Source: Purpureocillium takamizusanense
Lineage: Eukaryota > Ascomycota > Sordariomycetes > Hypocreales > Ophiocordycipitaceae
DNA length: 64,000 bases
Reading direction: 5' to 3'
Assembly: GCF_022605165.1 (NCBI RefSeq)
Contig: NC_063075.1
Location: 434,001-498,000, forward strand
Shown: positions 1,784 through 13,276 of the stretch, piece by piece
Layout of the letters: every line of letters begins with the position of its first letter
Position numbering within the stretch: position 1 is the first letter of the stretch
Notes under the pieces: generated by a model
The model's database searches: none
What the model was told of the DNA's origin: nothing
The model's input: the letters and a program-made list of their open reading frames with translations, nothing else
Made by a program: the position numbers and the translations under genes

Positions 1784-3478
1784 ATGGCTCCCTCTAATAC
1801 TTGGGGTCGCCTTCGTGTTGCTGGGGCTCTCTCGATCTTGGCGGGCCTCAGCGGGGTCAGCGGCATTCCCAAGAGCACGCTCATCAATCCTCCAAGCTCC
1901 TTCTTCGCAACCAGCCAAGTTGAGTACTCCTCAGCTCTCAACATCGCTGCGAGCGATGGTGACTTGTGGCCTACTACGTGGGCCGACGATGACAACATCT
2001 ACACGGCCAACGGTGACGGACGAGGGTTCTCTACCAATCAAGCTGATTTCGCCGACGCTGTGGCGAATCGCATTTCTGGCACACCGGACACCGGTATTTC
2101 TGGCTTGCGCTTGGCCGCCGGGAACCAGCTTGGCCCTGTCTGGACGGCAGGTACTTACAATAGAAAGCCGACAGGCATCGTTGCTGTCGACGGTGATGGC
2201 GATGGCAAGGACGAGCTGTATTTGGCTATTCAGGACTTGAACTATGGAGGAAATGGTGCTGCCTTCAACGATGTGCCTGCCGCAAGCATCCTCCGCTCGG
2301 CCGACTACGGCAACACTTGGACGGCGACTCAATCTCCTATGTTTTCAAACTACACTTTTACGACTGTCTTCTTCCTGGACTTTGGCAAGAGCCAGTCGCA
2401 AGCCTCAGTGCTAGGGGCAGATGGTCCCAAGTACGTGTACGCCTACGGCCTAGACAACAATTGGCGTGACTCAGTGGCAGGGACCGTGCCTGACCCTCAA
2501 GACCTCTATCTCGCGCGGGTTCCCGTCAATGCTGTACAGGACGTCTCAAAGTGGCAGTTCTTTAGCGGCTCAGTGTCGGCGCCTGCTTGGACGGCAGACA
2601 TCAAAGCACGCCGATCGGTCCTTCACGACTCGCGTCGGGAGTACCCAGGCGACCAAACGGCCGACGGCTTTTCCGTCCTCTCCCAAGGCAGTGTCGTGTA
2701 TAACGCGCCGTTGAAGAGGTACATCTATACCAGCTGGACAGACTACACCTTTGACTTCTACGAGGCGCCCCAACCTTGGGGCCCCTTCACGCTTTTTGAG
2801 TCGAAGGACTTCGGCGTCACTCCATGGTTCGGACGCAACACGAGCACACCTAAAAACGGCGGCTATGCCACGACCATTCCTTCAAAGTTCATCTCTGCAG
2901 ACGGCAAGAGTATGTGGGTTCAGTCCAACTGGTTTGTGGGCGCCGCGGCGGGCAGCGACGTCAATTACTCCTTCTCCTTGCGACGTCTCCAGGTGACCAA
3001 GTACACGTCAACCCAGGCAACCAACCAGCCTGGCAATACCAACCTAGCCCGTGAGACGGGAACGGTGCCGATTTGCAAGGCGGCGCATTACGGACATTTG
3101 CAATACCTCAATGACGGCGCTACGCTGAGTGAGGACAGTTGGGACGGGTCCCAGAAGGACCTCGACCGCTGGGGCTATACCTGGTCTACCCAATACCACA
3201 TGAACCGCGTAGTCTACACCACTGGCAACTCTTTCGCAGACGGCGGGTGGTTCTCCAGCAACCTGACTGTACAGGTCCGGAAGAACTTTCAGTGGGTCAA
3301 CGTCAACGATCTCCAAGTCAGCCCGCAATATCCATACAACAATGCCGCGGTGCCTAACAAGGCTTTTACGTTCGAATTCGCCGACGTGGTCGGTGATGGC
3401 ATTCAAATCATTGGTGTGCCTGGTGGTTCGTTCTTCTTCACGTCAATCGCCGAGCTGGAGGTGTATTATGACAGTTGA
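1784..3478 (+). CDS. Secreted DUF4185 protein (GH183-like, putative endo-D-arabinofuranosidase)
   Basis: Intronless 564-residue protein. Residues 1-27 form a signal peptide (basic start, Leu/Ala/Gly core, small residues before the cleavage site), so it should be secreted. The N-terminal two thirds carry the DUF4185 signature GDLWPTTWADDDNIYTANGD near residue 60, followed by blocks such as GDGDGKDELYLA and SWTDYTFDFYEAPQPWGPF, as expected of a beta-propeller glycosidase. DUF4185 is the Pfam family from which GH183 endo-D-arabinofuranosidases were defined. After about residue 420 a second domain ends in FFFTSIAELEVYYDS, which looks like a discoidin/CBM32-type beta-sandwich that could bind substrate. 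The gene converges on the neighbouring regulator (128 bases between stops) and leads a cluster with a GH172 glycosidase and a sugar transporter. The family call is firm. The D-arabinan substrate is inferred from family and neighbours, and I did not verify catalytic residues. Confidence 0.8.
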   Translation: MAPSNTWGRLRVAGALSILAGLSGVSGIPKSTLINPPSSFFATSQVEYSSALNIAASDGDLWPTTWADDDNIYTANGDGRGFSTNQADFADAVANRISGTPDTGISGLRLAAGNQLGPVWTAGTYNRKPTGIVAVDGDGDGKDELYLAIQDLNYGGNGAAFNDVPAASILRSADYGNTWTATQSPMFSNYTFTTVFFLDFGKSQSQASVLGADGPKYVYAYGLDNNWRDSVAGTVPDPQDLYLARVPVNAVQDVSKWQFFSGSVSAPAWTADIKARRSVLHDSRREYPGDQTADGFSVLSQGSVVYNAPLKRYIYTSWTDYTFDFYEAPQPWGPFTLFESKDFGVTPWFGRNTSTPKNGGYATTIPSKFISADGKSMWVQSNWFVGAAAGSDVNYSFSLRRLQVTKYTSTQATNQPGNTNLARETGTVPICKAAHYGHLQYLNDGATLSEDSWDGSQKDLDRWGYTWSTQYHMNRVVYTTGNSFADGGWFSSNLTVQVRKNFQWVNVNDLQVSPQYPYNNAAVPNKAFTFEFADVVGDGIQIIGVPGGSFFFTSIAELEVYYDS

Positions 3479-3605
3479 GGCGCACGTACGCCATGTCTTG
3501 AAGACGAAGCATGTCGCTGCACTGCAGGGACATGTACGAGCAACCGTTAGGTAGCATGCCTTTGCAATATACCTGCATCTCATACATTTATTTCGCTGCA
3601 AATCA

Positions 3606-5636
3606 CTATATCCTGTGTAGATCAACGTTGGACAAAGTGGCCTTGATGCTGTCAGCCATCACCGACAGAGACGGACTGCAGCGGCATTCCTCCCCAAATG
3701 CATCACGAGCTAACCAGAGTGCCGCCCAGGTCTCGCGCCCAGCTGTAGATGCGAGTAGGGAGCTTGATGCTCCCATATATGCGCCAAGAGAGATGGCGAA
3801 AATGCTGAAGGGCCCAGTCAGTTTGCATCTGATAGGCTGGTCGATCTGAGATGAGAAGATCTTTGATGACCTACCTCGCATATAACGTCCACTTGTTTGG
3901 AAGGCAAGCGTCCAGAGCCACTGTGGCACTGTTGATGAACTCTCGGTATGACCGGAAGTACGTTTCGCAGCCGCTCATTGTGACATCTGTCAGCCGATCG
4001 GACTCCATGACTTGGACAACTGACGGCCAGTAAAAGGACACCATGCAGGCCCAGTACTGAGTTCGCAAAAATGGTATCTGCATGTGGCCATCTTCATGCA
4101 CGCCATCAAACTCTCGAGAGAAGCGCAAGGGCTCTGGTAAATACGAGAACCACTGCTCGAGCTGTGCCTCTAGCTCCTTGGCCACCAAAGGAGCGTACTC
4201 AACGCTGCCACTTGTGGTGACGGTTATTGCCGTGGTGTTCCGCCGCAGCATTCTCCTCATGGCTATTTCAGCTAGAAGATAGGTTATGACGTCGTCGGAT
4301 CGAGTCGTCTGTGGAGTCATGGCAGGTGATTGAGGGTCAGTTTCGAAGGTCCAAATGTCAGTGCCTGTAGGCAACGCGATATCCTCTTCGGACTCCCAGG
4401 CGTTGCTGTCAGCCAACTGGAGAGGCACAACCAGCTCGCCTTCGATGAGGAGGACTACCCTATAAACACGCGTCCAATGCTCCATACTCTCTTTTTCGCG
4501 TTGTATGGCTCCGCTCAAATGGAGATTTTGCGCCTTCTTAATGGCGAGCACAGCCAGATCATGCGCTTGCAGCGGCTTGAGCAACAGGTAGTAATGAATG
4601 CTCATGGCCACCAAGCATTGAACACTCCGGAGGCTCTGCTCAAGGAAGACGAGGTGTAGCATCTCCATGGCAGCGCTCAGGTACATGGCGTCGGGCCTTT
4701 GCTCCAGGGCTACGCTATGTGCCGCTTCCTGTACTATGGTCCCGCTGGCCAGCACCATAAGGACCAGGAATGCATCTGCGCCTCGCTCGAAGGAGTTGGC
4801 CAGAAAAGACGAGACGCAGTCTGAGAATCGGTCTTCCAGGATGGGGTACCACGGGTGGATCCTGTCGGAGAAGCTCTGCAGCGCTGACATGACCTTGGCA
4901 TGCTGGAGCACGAACATGGTCGATGTCGGCCCCGTTGCGGCGGGGAGATCCTGCTCGAGCCGAATGACCGTGTTGCCGTAGTCCTCGCCGAGGCCGGCCA
5001 TGCCGGTGAATGCGCTCGTCTGAAGCTTCATGTACGGGAACCCACTCTCTGGAGACCCTGGGCTCGCTGTTGTGCTAGACGCGCTTCCGGGGTAGGTCCA
5101 GGGGCTCAGAGCCACAGCGTGGATCTGCGTGGCACCGTTCCGAGGCGCTGGTGGGCCATGAGCTGCAAAGGTTGATTCGATGCGGTCCAGCTGAGATCTG
5201 ATTTGGGAAAGCTGGTCTTCCACGCTGCTGCGCCGTTGAGTCGTCAGCAGGCCAGGATGGGATAGCTAACTTGGACAAGCTTGAGACGCACCTATTGCTT
5301 GCCGGGCGCTTGTTATCCTAGGAAATAGTCGTTAGGGGATTTCGGTTCGGGCGGCATGCCCCAATGCGTCGCACTCACTTGTGGATAGCTGCATTCGCAA
5401 CTTCGGGCCTCACATGTTCCGCAAACTGGCTTCCGGCCGTCGCATCTCGTTCGCCGGGCGCGACAAGCTTCGCACGCCAGCACGCGTATCTTTCGTGTTT
5501 GGGCGCGTGATGGAGACGCCATGGTCGTCCTCCCGCTCTGCGCGGATGACGGTGGACATGTCCGCGACGATGTCCTGGGAGGGACGGAGCCATGCCCGGG
5601 TGCGGAGAGGGCTTTAAGGTTCCCCGTTCGTGTCAT
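3606..5636 (-). CDS. Zn(II)2Cys6 fungal-specific transcription factor
   Basis: Three exons: 5379-5636, 3875-5265 and 3606-3804. The first intron (GTGAGT...TTAG) is phase 0; the second is 70 bases (GTAGGT...CTGAC...CTTCAG) and replaces an early stop, adding about 65 residues. The 615-residue product has a perfect binuclear zinc cluster: Cys55, 58, 65, 72, 75 and 82 (C-x2-C-x6-C-x6-C-x2-C-x6-C) with the basic run RARRTR. A short Leu/Ile/Arg heptad-like segment follows (around QLSQIRSQLDRIES), then a long helical region typical of the fungal_trans/middle homology domain. An in-frame Met at 5522 is an equally good start and gives 577 residues. The gene is transcribed divergently from GH172 and sits inside the carbohydrate cluster, so pathway-specific control of that cluster is the natural inference. 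Ligand and binding site are unknown. Confidence 0.85.
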
Positions 5637-6071
5637 CCATCTCCCAGGTTTTGCCCCGACCCCGGACTGGGCTGCTCACCTTGTCACGCCAGCGCTGGTG
5701 CTTCTCCACATCAAAACCTGTCCAGACTCCAAGTGCTAGCTCCCAGGCCGCCGAAATTCCCGGGCATGTTGATGCGGGGTTTGCATGCTGCCGTGTGGTT
5801 GGCGCCGGGTGAAGGAACATCTCCATTAATAAATTATTCCCAAATTGGACTCCTTGCAGCGGGACAGTGACACTCACGGCAAGAAATGGGGTCTTCAGGT
5901 TGCAGGCCAGACTGACTACCCCTATAACGTTATATACAAATTAACTTAGTCCGCAGGCAAATAACAAAAGCACCCCCAGCTTACGTCGCCTCGTCCTGTC
6001 TCGCGATACAACTTCGGAGAGAAACTACAAGGCGCGAATACGAAAGACTAAAGCACAGACGATTAAGCAAA
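5637..6071. promoter_or_regulatory. Shared divergent promoter, regulator and GH172
   Basis: This 435-base spacer separates the divergent starts of the Zn2Cys6 regulator and the GH172 gene. A TATATAC element at 5931-5937 lies 135 bases before the GH172 ATG. A CCG-N4-CGG pair at 5656-5665 could be a zinc-cluster binding site, but such pairs arise easily by chance at this GC content. Confidence 0.4.
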
Positions 6072-7556
6072 ATGCTGGGCCAAGAACTTCTCGGATCGGT
6101 CACGCAACAAAAGCAGGCTAGGAGCGCTCGGATATCAAGTTGGGATCACTCCGGCCTCAACGAAGATGCATTCGTTGTGCAGCCCGGTGAGACGGCTGTT
6201 CTAGCCGATATCGAAGGACCTGGCACAATCACGCACCTCTGGTTCGTTCAAACATGTCGTCGAATCTTGGGGCCTGGCCTTGTGCCCTACACCAAATCCG
6301 GCGTTGCGATGCAGGAAGTCGAGAACGGCCAGGGAGCCAACTACGAGGTCATGGATCCAGACTACTATCGCAAAGTAGTCATCAGAATGTATTGGGACGA
6401 TTCAACTACTCCCAATGTCCTGGCCCCGCTAGGCGACTTCTTCTGTGTCGGCCACTCGATCGCAGCCAATTTCCAGTCTCTTCCGTTCACGGCATCAGTC
6501 AAGCCAAGCGAAGACAAGAAGTTTGGCGGCGCATCGGCTTTGAACTGCTATCTTCCCATGTGTGTATTTCCCGATCTGATCCCCGGCCAGTATGTAGCTG
6601 ACCTATACTCCAATCAAAGGCCGTTCAACAAGCGCGCCCGAATCGAGGTCGAAAACCAGAACGACATCGCGTACTTTCAGTACTTTTATATTGACTACGA
6701 TATCCAACTGCAGCTGCACGGTCCCGAGACGCTGTTCTTTCATGCCCACTGGCGGCGACAGAATCCCACAGCGGGTTGGGCCCCCCACGACTTGCAGACC
6801 AACTCACTCGAAGCAAACGTCCCCAACTTGGACGGAAAGGCGAATTATGTTCTTCTCGAGACCACTGGTGCTGGTGCATATATAGGGTGTAACCACTCTG
6901 TGTATCATTTCCAAGGCACATGGTGGGGTGAAGGCGATGATATGATCTTCATCGACGATGACACATGGCCGCCCTCCATGCACGGAACAGGTAGCGAGGA
7001 CTACTTCAGCCAAGGCTGGGGGATGCAGAAAAACGCCTTTCCGTTCGCGGGTAGCATCATTCATGAGGGCGAGATGCCTCATTACCAGGTCTCATATCGC
7101 TGGCACCTTCCTGACCCCGTCCGCTTCAACACCAGAATCAAGGTCACCATGGAATCAGGTCATGCCAATCACTTGAGCGATGACTGGAGCTCGACAGCAT
7201 AGTGAGTGCCGATCGGCGAAAAAATGACGAGCAGAATTACCCCAGGCTAACTTCGATGCAGCTGGTATCAAACCCTCCCGGGCCCCAAGCTGGAAATAGC
7301 TCCAGTCGCCGAGCGTCTGCCTCCAAGGGCCGAAGTATCGCCACCAAAACAGCCCGAGGGACCTGAGCTTACGGAAAGACAAATGGAAATGATCAAGCAG
7401 AGACAGCAGAGGCTAGATGAGTTTATTGCGGATAAGACGAAGTGGCTCGAACGCCGGGCGCTGGACAGCAGGAAGCGAGCTGCTCAGAACAAGGAATGGG
7501 CTGCGGATGTTCGTCGCCGGTACAAAGACTCTGTCACGAAGGGAGAGGAGCGATAG
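6072..7556 (+). CDS. GH172 (DUF2961) glycosidase, putative exo-D-arabinofuranosidase
   Basis: Two exons, 6072-7201 and 7262-7556, joined across a 60-base GTGAGT...GATGCAG intron that restores the family sequence SSTAYWYQTLPGP; the product has 474 residues. It matches DUF2961/GH172 throughout: ISSWDHSG near residue 21, ADIEGPGTITHLWF near 45, DPDYYRKVVIRMYW near 95, the acidic WWGEGDDM at 284-291 and GTGSEDYFSQGWG from 305. GH172 enzymes have a jelly-roll fold and include exo-alpha-D-arabinofuranosidases and alpha-D-fructofuranosidase/difructose-anhydride enzymes. There is no signal peptide, so it should be cytosolic and act on imported oligosaccharides. The last 80 residues are charged and helical (RQMEMIKQRQQR...), an extension I do not associate with the core family. 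Family is near certain; substrate is inferred. Confidence 0.9.
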
Positions 7557-8422
7557 TCCAACATAAACGGTGATTTGCTTAGACAAGCTCGAAACGCTAG
7601 ACCAGCATTTGGTGCAAATATACAGCTCAGAAGAGTCTTCCCTCGCCCATGATAGCAGACCAGTAGTCGTTTACAATCTGATCCACTAGGCAGCGTTGAG
7701 GAAGAAAAGAGGCTCCGGTCAAACTTTCACATGTATACATGTACCGCTTGGAGGATCTCGATGCCGAGAGAGCGTTTGTTGGCAAATTCCACGTGGGACG
7801 GCACCAGCAAGGTGCAGTCGACAAATTTGGTTTGTCCAGACTGCGCCCTTGCTGATGCTTGATGGATCCGCTCCGCCCAGCGACATCGGGGTCATCATGT
7901 CCAAGTTGGATGGTCCCCACTGACCACCACACCACTTGGATGACCGCGGAGTTTCTGAACCCTCTCCGCGCGGTGTGTGGGCTCAACGGACCAATGTCGA
8001 CCATTCGGCGTCCAGAACAAGCAAGCGCCACCATCATCAGCCGGGTATTATTTCCATGGCGTGAGGTCTCGCGCGCCTAAACTACCTTAGCTTGACATCT
8101 GGGGGTTCCTTGGGGTCGCCCTCACGATGCGCGGTTCCCCAGATTCTTCCCCGCGTCATGTTTTCCCCTCTCCAGCTGTTCGAGGGTGATTCCAGGGATG
8201 CCTTGTGGCGCATCTAATATGTCGTTAGACGAGGTGGCTCGACATCAATGACATTGTGGCCGGCGAGGACCTCAGTCCAGACTTGCACTCCTACTTGTTG
8301 CCAACGCTGCAAGGTGGTTGTGCCAGCATATATAGCGCGCGCAAGTACGCCTCTCGGTTTCGTCCAGTCGTGATTTTGGCTGCGCGCATCAAAGCTCCGA
8401 TACACCAACAGCAGTCACCAAA
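7557..8422. promoter_or_regulatory. Promoter region of the sugar transporter
   Basis: No credible ORF. A TATA element (ATATATAG, 8328-8335) lies about 90 bases before the transporter ATG. Two everted CGG motifs occur 22 bases apart, CCGCGG at 7944-7949 and CCGCGCGG at 7966-7973. These are plausible zinc-cluster sites for the regulator encoded at 3.6-5.6 kb, unproven. Confidence 0.4.
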
Positions 8423-10466
8423 ATGGCGTCCTCACCTGCAGCGTGAGTAAGGTTGAACCATTTCCGCATCGTCATGCTAAGTACTTGGTAAACAGGATCG
8501 ACTACAATGTCATTAATCCGTCCAAAAAATGGCGGATGCTTCGAGTTCAGTGGCGATACGGCCTTTGGGGTGAGTAATTATCGGCAGGGCATGCCCCGTC
8601 GCCCCCATCGAGTCCAACTCAACCTAACCGACAAATTGGCAGCACTGTGGACGTCGATCGGCTCGATGATGCTCGGTTTTGACTACGTCATTGGAAGCCA
8701 GCTGGCCGCCCTCTCCGAGTTCCAAAAGTTTTTCGGTGTTCAACAGCCAGACGGCAGCTGGATCATCCCGGCAACGTACCTGTCGGCATGGGGCGCCATC
8801 GGTCTGGGATGCGACGTGGTAGCTTCATGGCTCGCAGCGCCTCTGCTGGAGAAATACGGTCGCAAGCCTCTCATTCTCTTCTCAGCAGGTGTTTCTGTTG
8901 TCGCCATTGTTCTCCAGCAGCTGGCTACCAATTGGCGGGTCCATCTTACTGGTCGCGCAGTAAATGGTCAGTTGGAGTGGCGCGGCCTCGAACCCAGAGA
9001 ACTGCTAACAAAAGTGCGCCAGGTATCGCCATTGGCATCATGTTTACCATCTCGCCACTCTGGATTGGGGAAACTTGCCGTCCAGAGCTTCGGGGCTTCT
9101 GGCTTTGCTTCTGTGAGTGTTCCAAGAGGCACACAGACTCGACCTACTTGTGTATGTACTGACCTGATCAGTCAACACCAGTATTATCTGGGGACAGATG
9201 CTCGTGTAAGTGGACCCAATACCATGGGCGCTCAGAGAACCGCATATTCACATCATATCCTGTCAGGGTCATCGTATCTCGCGCGAGCAGCTCGCTCGAC
9301 ACAAAGTGGCAGTGGTGGATTCCCATCATTTGCATGTACATCTATCCACGTAAGTATTCGGGATGAAGTGATAGTGACCACAGCTAATCCCCCTGACAGT
9401 TATGCTCATCGTTGTCTGGCCATTCTTCCCCGAGTCGCCATACTGGCTAGTACGCGAGGAAAAATATGAGGCTGCACGGAAGTCTCTTGAGCGAATGTAC
9501 GGCTTCGACGATCCCAACTTCTACGACATCGAGATCCGACGCTTGCAAGAGGACGTGCGCCTCTGCGAAGAGATGACAGGCACAAGCAAGTCCGAAAAAC
9601 TCATTTTTGGCTTCCTCCCCTCGCCGACAGCCGAGTTGCAGTGTTTCGACAAGCAGAACAGGAAGCGAACGTTGACAGCCATCTGTGCAGCCAGTTCACA
9701 GCAGGTCATCGGGGCCGCGTTTGTCATTGGAAACGCGACATACTTTCTGGAGCTTCTGGGCGTCAAGCAGTTTTTCGACGCCTCCGTGGTCTTATATGTC
9801 ATCATGCTTCTCTCTTCCGCCGCTGCGTTCCCTCTGAGCGAGGTGGTGGGGCGCCGGACACTGATCGTCCCGTCGCAGTTTTTGCTCTGCTTCTTCTTGC
9901 TACTCATTGGAATAATGGGCTGCGTTCCTAACCAGGCAAAGGCGGGCTGGGCTATCGTGGTCTTCATTTACCTCTGGGCCATCGTCTACCAAGTCAGTAT
10001 CGGCGCCACTGGCTTTGTTTTGGCTAGTGAGGTGGCCACCCTGCGACTTCGGGCTGTCACACAGGCATTGGTGACAATGAGCAATGGTGTCTGGGGTCTC
10101 ATCATGCAATTCACGATCCCGTACATGGTCAGTGGCAGACACAGCAGGTGCCATAAACGTGAACCCAGGACATAAATGCTGACTCGGATACAGATCAACC
10201 CTGACGCCGGCCACCTTGGCGGCAAGGTGGGGTTCATCTTTTTCGGTTTGGGGCTAATTGTTTCGGTTCTTGGGTGGTTCCTTTATCCAGAGACCAAGGG
10301 CGTCCGTTTTGAGAAACTCGATGAGCTTTATGCCAAGGGTGTGAAGCCTCGACACTTCAAGAAGCACGAGAATCAGACGGACATTGATAACCAAATCGGC
10401 TCGAAGCAGGAAGAAATTGAAGCAGAGTCCCGGGTCGAGACAAAGATTGATCAGCAGGCGGCATAA
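8423..10466 (+). CDS. MFS sugar transporter (sugar porter family)
   Basis: Eight exons: 8423-8442, 8496-8569, 8643-8966, 9023-9112, 9172-9205, 9267-9349, 9400-10127 and 10194-10466. All joins keep phase and give 541 residues. Signatures of the sugar porter family of the major facilitator superfamily are present: [15 protein letters not shown] after helix 1, EKYGRKPL (the R-G-R/K loop), [20 protein letters not shown] before the central loop, and [15 protein letters not shown] after helix 12. The N-terminal part resembles the maltose/alpha-glucoside proton symporter branch. The C-tail is hydrophilic ([16 protein letters not shown]) and cytosolic. Following GH172 on the same strand, it probably imports the sugar or oligosaccharide released by the secreted enzyme. 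The specificity cannot be read from sequence alone. Confidence 0.9.
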
Positions 10467-12196
10467 TGATTGAAAGGGGTTTCAGAAGTCCTCCGAAGGC
10501 CCTGTAAATTTTACTTGGGGCGAATTGCTCCACCATGTTAAGGTCGGGCGAGTGGAAGAATTTCAGTAATAAGCTTTGCACTTGACCTGACTCATCCGTG
10601 GCTGAGATCTCTAAGGGGCAGAGGGTTTATGGCCTCACAACTCCGGGTGGTGCACTGGCCTGTCTGCCGCAGGCGGACATTGACAATACGAGGTGGAGTA
10701 AACCAATTTTGGCGATACCCAGGAGGGCATTGTGATGGTTGTATGGTAACCTCGGGAGTGGGCAGATGTGGCTTACGATCGGCCCGGTAGCAGAAGTAGG
10801 TACATTGTACCTATAAGCTCGGTGACGGGACCATACGTTACGCAGGTACGCGGGCAATCTCTTACGTTCCCTTTCGTAGTGGCCTGTGTATATCTAGACC
10901 GAGCCAGCCCGGCCAGCCCGCGAAACTCAGCCAGCGGCGCATTGTGGCATAGCGTAGCTTAGTATTATCCTTGCTTTGAGGCCGTCGCGAACTCTCTGTT
11001 GCCGAGCTCGAGCTATTAATTTCCTCCTTTACTGCATGTGTTGTGTGTGTATGCTGACGAGCTGCGCCTATCCGAACTTGGCGTACGTTACGAAACCAAG
11101 GCGGGCATAGGAGCTCAATTGCTCCAGGCCCGCGCCCGGGCTCAGGCAATGAAAGCTAACCCTCTTCACGAACACTGGGGCAATATGGGCATCGCGACTG
11201 CATGGTCACCTGCCGTGATCATTTCGTAGGCGACTATTGTTACCTGACATCCTAGCAACCACCAGCACTTCTCAGTCCCTCAGGCTACCTGTAGCCTGCT
11301 CGGCCCTAAACGGCGGCCCCATGGGAAGGTCACGGGGGCTGGAGGGCTTGCATGACCACGGCCAACTCCTCCAACAGCGTGCGCTTCCCACACCTACTAC
11401 GTTACTAATGCAGCCCGGTTGCGACCAAGCCACATGTGCCGCAGGGCGTGGCGCGGTGCGGGGCTCGTCCAACACCCTGTGGACGGGGGCAAAGGCGCTC
11501 TGAAGGGATACGCAGGGCTGCTCGTGAACCGAACCGTGGTGTCTCAAGAGTCAGGAGTCAGGACTTCTGAGTCTTTAGCCCCAGTGGGTGAGTCCCACTC
11601 ACTGTCTCACTTGCACCCGTATGTGGCCAGTGTCTCAAATTCAGCGTTGGCCGAATTCTCTCATCTGCCGTAGTAAAATAGGGGGAAACTCGTAATATGG
11701 AGGTTATCAAAATTCATTATTCCATGGCAAAGTCCATGTCGGAAGCGATCAGGGACCGTTACGAAGTACTATCTAGCCTAATTTCAGCTTGTGCGTATTG
11801 GGGGGCTCTTTTATTGTGGTGTCTCAAGATGTTGGGCGCGTCAATCCGGCCTCCTTCCACTGTCTGAATGCGTCAAAGATTCCGCCAGCGTCTACAGAGT
11901 CCAGCATCATGTGCGTGGAGCAGCACGGGAGTCTTCCTCGGCATGACCGCTCCGTAAATAGGCATGATAGACATCGACGTGTTCGGCAAATGATCGCTCG
12001 ACATAGCACACCGGGTTGGTACCTAGGCCACGACAGATCAACCCTGACCTACTTAGACTCTTAGAGAGACGCTGCTTCAAGACCATGAGTTTCACCTATA
12101 AGGTGGAGGAGCGCCGCTTCAGGCCGAGGCTCAGAGTTGTGTATTTCGCGCCAAGGTTCTACAATTTGACTATCGTTATCGTTGAAGGTTGCCAAT
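10467..12196. other. Gene-free spacer, 1.7 kb
   Basis: Only short overlapping frames without domains. The segment around 10,750-10,870 has many GTAC/TAGG words common in intergenic DNA of this window. The last part is the promoter of the GH18 gene; no clear TATA box is seen. Confidence 0.55.
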
Positions 12197-13276
12197 ATGC
12201 GAGGGCTATCTGTGCTCCCGCTACTCCTCGCATCCCTTGGTGGAGTGTATGCTAAACCCACAGAATTGGCCCGGGGTTCCACGACGGCCTTGCCACGACT
12301 AGTGCTTTACTTTCAGACAACTCACGACTCTGACGGACACCCAATATCGATGCTTCCGCTTGTCCAAAAGCAGGCGATAGCATTGACTCATTTGATTATC
12401 TGCTCTTTGCACATCAACAAAGAGGACAACATACATCTTAATGACTATCCTCCTGATCACCCCCACTTCTTCACACTATGGAATGAGACAGTTACAATGA
12501 AGAACTCAGGAGTCACGGTTATGGGGATGATTGGCGGAGCAGCCTCCGGATCATTCACGAAGGATACGCTTGATGGAGACCAGGAAACTTTCGACAGATA
12601 CTACGGTCAACTTAAAGAAGTCATTCAGAACTTCGGTCTCCAAGGCATGGACTTGGATGTTGAGCAGCAAATGAGCCAGAGCGGTATTACCCGGCTAGTC
12701 AACCAGCTACGCAGCGATTTTGGAGCCGACTTCGTTATCACACTCGCCCCAGTTGCGTCAGCACTCCGAGGGGGAAGCAACCTGAGCGGATTTGACTATT
12801 CTACACTAGAGTCAAGCGACGGAGACGATATCTCATTTTACAACGCCCAGTTCTATTCAGGATTTGGAAGCATGAAAAGCCCTAGCGACTTCAATGCCAT
12901 TGTGTCGCGCGGATTAGCCCCGTCTAAGATTGTTGCCGGACAGCTAACATCCGCTGACAATGGCTATGGTTACATACCGTATGACCAGCTCAACTCGACT
13001 ATCGTGCAACTACGCAGCCAATACAGCCAGATTGGCGGAGTGATGGGATGGGAATACTTCAACAGCGAACCGGAAGGCACTTTTAAGCCATGGGAGTGGG
13101 CCGAAATCATGACAGAAATACTTCGACCAGGACAAGCCCGGAAACTGCAGCTTTCGGCGTCGGATGTGAAGAGGTTGCAGAAGGCATATCGAGACACTGT
13201 CATGGCCTCGAATACACCACAGGCCAATGTTGCTGCTGTCGAGAAAGTCAACTATACCGCGTTGGCAAGCATGTGA
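12197..13276 (+). CDS. Secreted GH18 chitinase-like hydrolase
   Basis: Single-exon, 359 residues. I start at the ATG at 12197 because the longer reading begins at TTG. The signal peptide is MRGLSVLPLLLASLGGVYA. The catalytic strand reads LQGMDLDVEQ, giving Asp152, Asp154 and Glu156 of the GH18 D-x-D-x-E motif, with Glu156 the expected proton donor. The first Asp of the usual D-G-x-D-x-D-x-E is Gln149 here. A later GGVMGWEYFNSEPEG block is the typical beta-8 strand with its conserved Trp. The length fits single-domain fungal GH18 enzymes (chitinase or endo-N-acetylglucosaminidase type); there is no chitin-binding module. The C-terminal 60 residues are helical and atypical. It probably acts on chitin or N-glycans outside the cell. 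Confidence 0.85.
   Translation: MRGLSVLPLLLASLGGVYAKPTELARGSTTALPRLVLYFQTTHDSDGHPISMLPLVQKQAIALTHLIICSLHINKEDNIHLNDYPPDHPHFFTLWNETVTMKNSGVTVMGMIGGAASGSFTKDTLDGDQETFDRYYGQLKEVIQNFGLQGMDLDVEQQMSQSGITRLVNQLRSDFGADFVITLAPVASALRGGSNLSGFDYSTLESSDGDDISFYNAQFYSGFGSMKSPSDFNAIVSRGLAPSKIVAGQLTSADNGYGYIPYDQLNSTIVQLRSQYSQIGGVMGWEYFNSEPEGTFKPWEWAEIMTEILRPGQARKLQLSASDVKRLQKAYRDTVMASNTPQANVAAVEKVNYTALASM

Follow-up and report, generated by a model that had tools for sequence, protein, structure and literature searches.

Could a fungus use D-arabinan? The question is raised by four genes in a 64,000-nucleotide stretch (hereafter, the window) of the genome of Purpureocillium takamizusanense, an insect-pathogenic fungus. 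An earlier note on this DNA had proposed that their products cut D-arabinan outside the cell, import the fragments and finish hydrolysis inside. The genes encode a DUF4185 protein, a Zn2Cys6 regulator, a GH172 protein and a sugar porter of the MFS, and we found them side by side at positions 1784..10466 (Table 1). The spacers said to isolate them are also there: a gap of about 2.3 kb separates the group from a subtilase gene upstream, and one of 1.7 kb from a GH18-like gene downstream. The regulator matched Zn_clus with 40.9 bits and Fungal_trans with 31.1 bits. We read the MFS gene model exon by exon, the automatic splice models being wrong in places, and its product is 100% identical over 100% of its length to P. 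takamizusanense JDV02_008175 (541 aa). The relatives of this porter are named alpha-glucoside transporter, maltose permease, hexose transporter or general substrate transporter.

Table 1. Features of the four-gene group (positions in the window).
Feature	Positions	Strand	Remarks
DUF4185 / GH183-like protein, putatively secreted	1784..3478	+	one exon, 564 aa
Zn2Cys6 transcription factor	3871..5522	-	about 508 aa; PF00172 and PF04082
Zn2Cys6 gene, exons	5379-5522, 5292-5317, 3871-5227	-	short middle exon uncertain
GH172 (DUF2961), predicted alphaFFase1 type	6072..7556	+	exons 6072-7201, 7262-7556; 474 aa
Sugar-porter MFS	8423..10466	+	eight exons in model, 541 aa

Family profiles say little about the DUF4185 protein: hmmscan matched it to no Pfam family at E 0.01. 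It was the only DUF4185 match listed in a six-frame search of the genome, where PF13810 scored 39.4 bits, or 41.3 with the frame neighbours, for a cut-off of 39.5. The same profile matched 12 of the 25 members of our first DUF4185 alignment. Searches of PDB sequences with the protein and its alignment returned no real relative, the matches being haemoglobin and sialidase noise (E ≥ 0.12). Its likeness to EndoMA1, a GH183 enzyme, was revealed only by the predicted structure and by profile comparison. The former has a five-bladed beta-propeller of EndoMA1 type (residues 41-410, approximately), followed by a beta-rich C-terminal part (about 428-564); the latter aligned the clade of the protein with EndoMA1 at 98.9-99.4% probability. 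Together they confirm the protein as a relative with the GH183 fold. A PL42 polysaccharide-lyase identity, brought up by a paper on fungi, was tentatively set aside, as no PL42 occurred among the 50 structural matches listed, which speaks only weakly against it. By eye and hydropathy, the N-terminus has a hydrophobic stretch resembling a signal peptide, consistent with the secretion proposed earlier.

The active site is partly kept. The catalytic aspartates of EndoMA1, the nucleophile D33 and the acid/base D51, appear to correspond to D60 and D78. D51 paired with D78 in all four alignment settings, whereas D33, left unplaced by a 25-row profile alignment, was put on D60 by the 201-row set in two settings and was unaligned in the other two. 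Both aspartates are kept in all ungapped rows of the 201-row clade alignment. R198 of EndoMA1 aligned to R228 in three of the four settings, and its equivalent is kept in 201 of 201 rows. The third essential acid, Glu243, is kept neither in the protein nor in its clade: the position is Q301 in all four settings, and Gln in 198 of the 201 clade rows, while every one of the 19 classical rows has Glu. The E243Q change nearly abolished the activity of EndoMA1 (PMC10509167). W138 and Y293 of EndoMA1 align to Gly and Asn. The assignment to GH183 made in the earlier note thus stands for the fold and the aspartate pair, but not for Glu243.

In bacterial and archaeal genomes, 281 relatives were confirmed. 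Gene contexts were counted in the best 80 of these 281 loci. The 80 are not independent of one another, and their flanks are often cut; five of them (L021, L032, L035, L056 and L078) are query loci that match by construction, and eight duplicate a database row of the 201-row set. D-arabinose-type isomerases were found in 24 of the 80 loci. The counts support a frequent link of the bacterial clade to GH172 and to D-arabinose-type catabolism genes, in favour of the earlier note. "D-arabinose-type" is a reading by family, because in L021 the FGGY kinase reached no NCBIfam cut-off (at best 301 of 380 bits, for xylulokinase) and the isomerase stayed far below those for L-fucose isomerase, though above Pfam's. 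Marker genes were absent from seven of the first eleven loci by score (L004-L014). Within the best 80, they were missing from the loci of Nocardia and from three of the five of Saccharopolyspora. The branch uniting the fungal clade with bacteria bearing D-arabinan loci has a support of just 63, in a tree made, like that of GH172, with FastTree only and with long-branch warnings.

The GH172 protein is a different case. Its first exon matched PF11175 with 238.3 bits, and both catalytic glutamates (E270, E291) are aligned, which places it in DUF2961/GH172. No hydrophobic stretch or signal peptide was seen at its N-terminus, as had been claimed. The proposal that it is an exo-D-arabinofuranosidase fared worse, since it groups with the fructofuranosidase-type enzyme alphaFFase1, a kind of result that the earlier note had named beforehand as refuting, although alphaFFase1 also cleaves alpha-D-arabinofuranosides. 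The first exon scored 400.9 bits with alphaFFase1 (7v1v) against 88.3 bits with ExoMA1 (8ic8), and the protein falls in the alphaFFase-type group of the tree. In GH172s of the exo-alpha-D-arabinofuranosidase type (ExoMA1, DgGH172c), Gly299 is replaced by Asn or Cys and Glu85 is missing; this protein has Gly, following the W298 equivalent as in alphaFFase1, together with Glu85 and Lys147 of the +1 subsite. From these residues we predict an enzyme of alphaFFase1 type (difructose dianhydride I synthase/hydrolase). In 45 GH172 ORFs near members of the bacterial DUF4185 clade, the Gly299 position is Asn (22), Cys (18), Tyr (4) or Ala (1), and none has Glu85; the tree omits five of them, four divergent ones with Tyr and one from L076 with Cys. 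In the crystallised GH172 of Dysgonomonas gadei (8ah3, DG02479), in our reading DgGH172c, the counterpart of the fungal Gly is Cys. A second DUF2961 gene of the genome looks secreted and is divergent, and we saw no tie between it and the cluster.

These traits suggest another function. Glu85, Lys147 and Gly299 have been tied to fructose handling (PMC8605356, PMC10509167). The alphaFFase1 operon of Bifidobacterium dentium encodes LacI, GH32, GH172 and an ABC transporter (PMC8605356); its GH172 shares with the fungal one E85, K147, E270, E291, D292, W298, G299 and the lack of a signal peptide, whereas the calcium ligand N272 is Asp in the fungus, and a secreted-type DUF4185 protein adjoins the fungal gene instead of a GH32. 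Four close bacterial relatives of the fungal GH172 (70-74% identity) were found, and both loci read carry GH32. In other fungi, where synteny was taken from equal contig sizes and locus tags in search tables (best 120 rows each, one longest contig per cluster), so that counts are lower bounds, GH172 and the MFS apparently share a contig in at least ten Ascomycota cases, and their locus tags are 1-3 apart in all six cases with both tags. A fungal GH172 clade and a difructose-anhydride synthase of Aspergillus fumigatus have also been discussed (PMC8605356). The cluster might then serve fructans or difructose dianhydrides: the MFS would bring in inulobiose and DFA I for interconversion by the intracellular GH172, and the DUF4185 protein would have shifted to an extracellular polymer or oligosaccharide that contains fructose. 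We consider this fairly unlikely. No GH32 was found in the 80 best DUF4185-clade loci, in contrast with the isomerases; GH183 acts on alpha-D-Araf, while the linkages of common fructans are beta (PMC8605356); and in the genome GH32 was matched on C6, C7 and C10 but not on C8.

The GH172-MFS pair also shares contigs in fungi without a listed DUF4185 (names are given for four of the 29 fungal DUF4185 rows), which, with the replaced Glu243 and the Nocardia and Saccharopolyspora loci devoid of markers, would fit a DUF4185 gene that is an accidental neighbour. Its product would have its own extracellular task, metabolically separate from GH172 and MFS; it might, for example, act on some other D-furanoside glycan, whether from insects, nematodes, fungi or bacteria. 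This is improbable in our view, as DUF4185 apparently shares a contig, by size, with GH172 or MFS in at least four other fungal entries, and the GH172s of P. takamizusanense, Conoideocrella and contig 20237 form one five-row clade (SH 100). Parts of the neighbourhood recur in other fungi, a check that the earlier note had set. In Pochonia, DUF4185 and MFS are apparently on one contig, with no GH172 among the best 120. DUF4185 linkage is not tied to one +1-subsite type, because the linked GH172 on contig 280998 (P0174) has Asp and Arg at E85 and K147, where that of Conoideocrella has Glu and Lys. Least probable of all is that GH183 ancestry gave a protein that binds or is otherwise non-catalytic, to which the Gln at the third carboxylate and the changed aromatic subsite residues would point. 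With the aspartates and the arginine intact in bacteria as well as fungi, an inactive enzyme would be unexpected.

We favour, at somewhat less than an even chance, a mosaic cluster for alpha-D-configured furanosides with two sources. The older fungal module would consist of the MFS and the intracellular alphaFFase1-type GH172, here with the Zn2Cys6 regulator; it would import and cleave small alpha-D-fructofuranosides, and alpha-D-arabinofuranosides as well, since the chemistry is shared. The gene for the GH183-like enzyme would be a bacterial acquisition added to this module. Most probably, this enzyme would be secreted and cut a D-arabinofuranose-containing glycan, with actinobacterial arabinogalactan, lipoarabinomannan or some related D-Araf glycan as candidates; the MFS would import the fragments, and the GH172 would free the terminal sugar inside the cell. 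The mosaic reading is weakened by the fructose-type residues and GH32 loci of GH172, the EndoMA1 residues lost, the seven marker-free loci, the branch support, and the absence of Glu85 from the 45 bacterial ORFs. Cleavage of alpha-D-Araf by alphaFFase1, too, has been called a side reaction (PMC10509167). It is also weakened by the genome, in which we found no match for GH116 (PF04685) or for the fucose-isomerase-type D-arabinose isomerase (PF02952, Fucose_iso_C), and by P. lilacinum, whose MFS listed by name is 58% identical against 93% for GH172. A partial KpsF/GutQ-like match on C6 (129 bits) is under the cut-off. The original proposal thus keeps its secreted-enzyme side, while the GH172 type, the loss of Glu243 and the missing GH116 and isomerase count against it; we infer that D-arabinan use by the fungus is possible but unproven.

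The D-arabinan locus of Microbacterium arabinogalactanolyticum, with GH183 EndoMA1/2, GH172 ExoMA1 and GH116 ExoMA2 (PMC10509167), shares with the fungal cluster a GH183-fold secreted enzyme (predicted to be so in the fungus), a signal-less GH172 and a sugar transporter. There, too, cutting outside the cell is followed by import, as we propose here. The transporter there is of the ABC type, the GH172 is of the Asn253 type rather than the Gly299 fructose type, and the fungal cluster has no GH116, isomerase or kinase gene next to it. The fungal DUF4185 clade is distant from the GH183 of that locus and lacks Glu243. PUL42 of D. gadei, a Bacteroidetes locus, also co-locates DUF2961 and DUF4185 enzymes, but has a predicted fucose isomerase (PMC10115798).

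A bolder claim, which we hold to be doubtful, is that this is the first fungal D-arabinan utilisation locus. A bacterial GH183-like enzyme of a new GH183 subfamily, with Gln for the third catalytic carboxylate, would be coupled to an alpha-fructofuranoside import-and-cleavage module whose intracellular fructose-type GH172 acts as an alpha-D-arabinofuranosidase, and the cell-wall glycan of actinobacteria would serve the fungus as food or as a target of attack. We found no description of a fungal D-arabinan locus among the literature matches listed; D-arabinan degradation in microbial eukaryotes is mentioned in one sentence of PMC10115798. The cluster is a direct test case for such use, and suggests how, in fungi, a cell-wall enzyme of bacterial type may have come to be joined to a fructofuranoside module. 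More broadly, the large uncharacterised GH183-like clade often lies in D-arabinan-type loci without a residue essential to EndoMA1, and what this clade does should be informative about changes in GH183 specificity. DUF4185 is known from bacteria and fungi (PMC10509167), and a DUF4185 orthogroup is among the families contracted in psychrophilic fungi (PMC11412873).

The four genes that the earlier note had placed in this cluster on contig C8 (size 2,396,511; the window spans C8 434001-498000 in a genome of 35.6 Mb and 14 contigs) were all borne out. The Pfam assignment of the DUF4185 protein is borderline, and the MFS product is 100% identical to JDV02_008175 of P. takamizusanense, an entomopathogenic fungus with a published draft genome announcement (PMC9302088).

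Genes of the cluster, in window coordinates
Gene	Position	Strand	Gene model
DUF4185 protein	1784-3478	+	
Regulator	5522-3871	-	
GH172	6072-7556	+	One intron
MFS	8423-10466	+	Seven introns in model used

The DUF4185 protein belongs to a clade of bacterial and fungal proteins that is distinct from classical GH183 and does not have Glu243 of EndoMA1. A genome scan across bacteria and archaea confirmed 281 relatives, and gene contexts were counted in the best 80 of these loci (flanks up to 10 kb per side; five of the 80 had supplied queries). GH172 lay near the clade member in 39 loci, classical GH183 in 14, a fucose-isomerase-type gene in 17, an FGGY kinase in 16, KpsF/GutQ and PfkB ribokinase types in seven each, and GH116 in three; one or both of the isomerase types occurred in 24. 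GH32 was found in none of these 80 loci, the query recovering its positive control (locus L141) at E 3e-226. Marker families were named from representatives, using NCBIfam and Pfam: the KpsF/GutQ and ribokinase models exceed their cut-offs, the isomerase is above the Pfam fucose-isomerase cut-offs and far below those of NCBIfam for L-fucose isomerase, and the FGGY kinase is below every NCBIfam cut-off. Of 15 genomes chosen from these loci (97.9 Mb), nine have a classical GH183 no more than 11 kb from the clade member, and five of 12 Fucose_iso_C matches lay within 12 kb of it. One Microbacterium locus (L078) unites the clade member with GH116, FGGY kinase, a classical GH183 and a GH172 that shares 90% identity with ExoMA1. 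On the other hand, among the eleven top-scoring loci (L004-L014), seven had no marker gene, GH172 occurred in L005, L009 and L013, and classical GH183 in L012. Overall, the genes around the bacterial relatives of the secreted enzyme point to D-arabinose.

Seven loci (L032, L036, L045, L053, L063, L068, L080) encode both the ribokinase-type PfkB and the KpsF/GutQ-type isomerase, which suggests a route from D-arabinose via D-arabinose-5-phosphate to ribulose-5-phosphate, alternative to isomerase plus FGGY kinase.

The GH172 protein speaks for D-fructose, by its residues and its context. Its first exon scored 401 bits against the fructose-type alphaFFase1 (7v1v), 146 against BACUNI, 130 against DgGH172c and 88 against ExoMA1. 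It keeps N31, D33, E85, K147, Y187, W267, E270, E291, D292 and W298 of alphaFFase1, with Asp at the N272 position and Gly directly after the W298 equivalent, the position at which, according to PMC10509167, fructose (Gly299) versus arabinose (Asn253) is decided. The 45 GH172 ORFs from the surroundings of bacterial clade members carry Asn (22), Cys (18), Tyr (4) or Ala (1) at this position, and none of them has E85. Mutants of E85 and K147 lost activity on inulobiose and retained it on pNP-alpha-D-Araf, as PMC8605356 reports. In the tree, the window protein and those of Purpureocillium lilacinum, Penicillium psychrofluorescens, Conoideocrella and contig 20237 form a five-row clade (SH 100), nested in a 124-row group that includes alphaFFase1 (SH 97); this goes against the exo-D-arabinofuranosidase type implied by the D-arabinan pathway of the earlier note. 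Relatives at E 0.001 occur in 18 of 22 genomes from the family of a Jiangella genome, four at 70-74% identity, and in both loci read among these four, GH32 adjoins GH172, with ABC-transporter and LacI genes. A fructan/DFA cluster, which these observations favour and the bacterial surroundings of DUF4185 do not, is somewhat unlikely.

The chemistry of GH172 allows both sugars, and our leading, still tentative reading is a mosaic cluster acting on a D-Araf glycan. Most likely, cleavage outside the cell is followed by import and intracellular hydrolysis: the GH183-like enzyme would cut an alpha-D-furanosidic glycan, the MFS would take up the products, and GH172 would strip alpha-D-Araf or alpha-D-Fruf, under control of the adjacent regulator. 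The gene families are already known; the fungal pairing of a GH183-like enzyme without Glu243 and an alphaFFase-type GH172 was not found in the literature searched.

Six-frame, exon-by-exon searches of the genome matched DUF4185 once, GH32 in three places (C6, C7, weak at 26.6 bits, and C10) and KpsF/GutQ partially, below cut-off; neither Fucose_iso_C nor PF04685 (GH116 catalytic region) was found. There is one alphaFFase-type GH172, and one larger, divergent DUF2961 gene with a signal-peptide-like N-terminus (C8:727177-727962, minus strand; L139).

Fungal synteny was approximated by equal-sized contigs and locus tags in search tables (best 120 rows each), so that counts are lower bounds. DUF4185 and GH172 shared contig size in at least three of 29 fungal-clade DUF4185 rows (317616 of Conoideocrella, with tags _000901 and _000903; 280998; 20237), and DUF4185 and MFS in Pochonia (841546). 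GH172 and MFS did so in at least 10 cases (Xylogone, Elasticomyces, Exophiala sideris, two Cadophora, Aspergillus spectabilis, Saxophila, Trichomonascus, Fusarium oxysporum and one more), and where both tags are given (six cases) the gap between them is 1 to 3; none of the fungi named here is among the four of 29 DUF4185 rows with an organism name. We read this pattern as an older fungal GH172-MFS module that DUF4185 joined later. That the DUF4185 protein has no functional tie to its neighbours we consider improbable. Least probable of all is that the protein is non-catalytic.

Beyond the cluster, a GH18-like gene with a putatively secreted product (PF00704, 43 bits; window 12179-13276, plus strand) lies directly downstream of the MFS gene. 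The nearest upstream neighbour, in the flank C8:424001-434000 (L002), is a putatively secreted subtilase (PF00082, 67 bits; minus strand), about 0.5-1.9 kb before the window start, and the same flank holds a hexokinase-family gene (PF03727, 215 bits; PF00349, 184 bits; plus strand) 7.2-9.0 kb before it.
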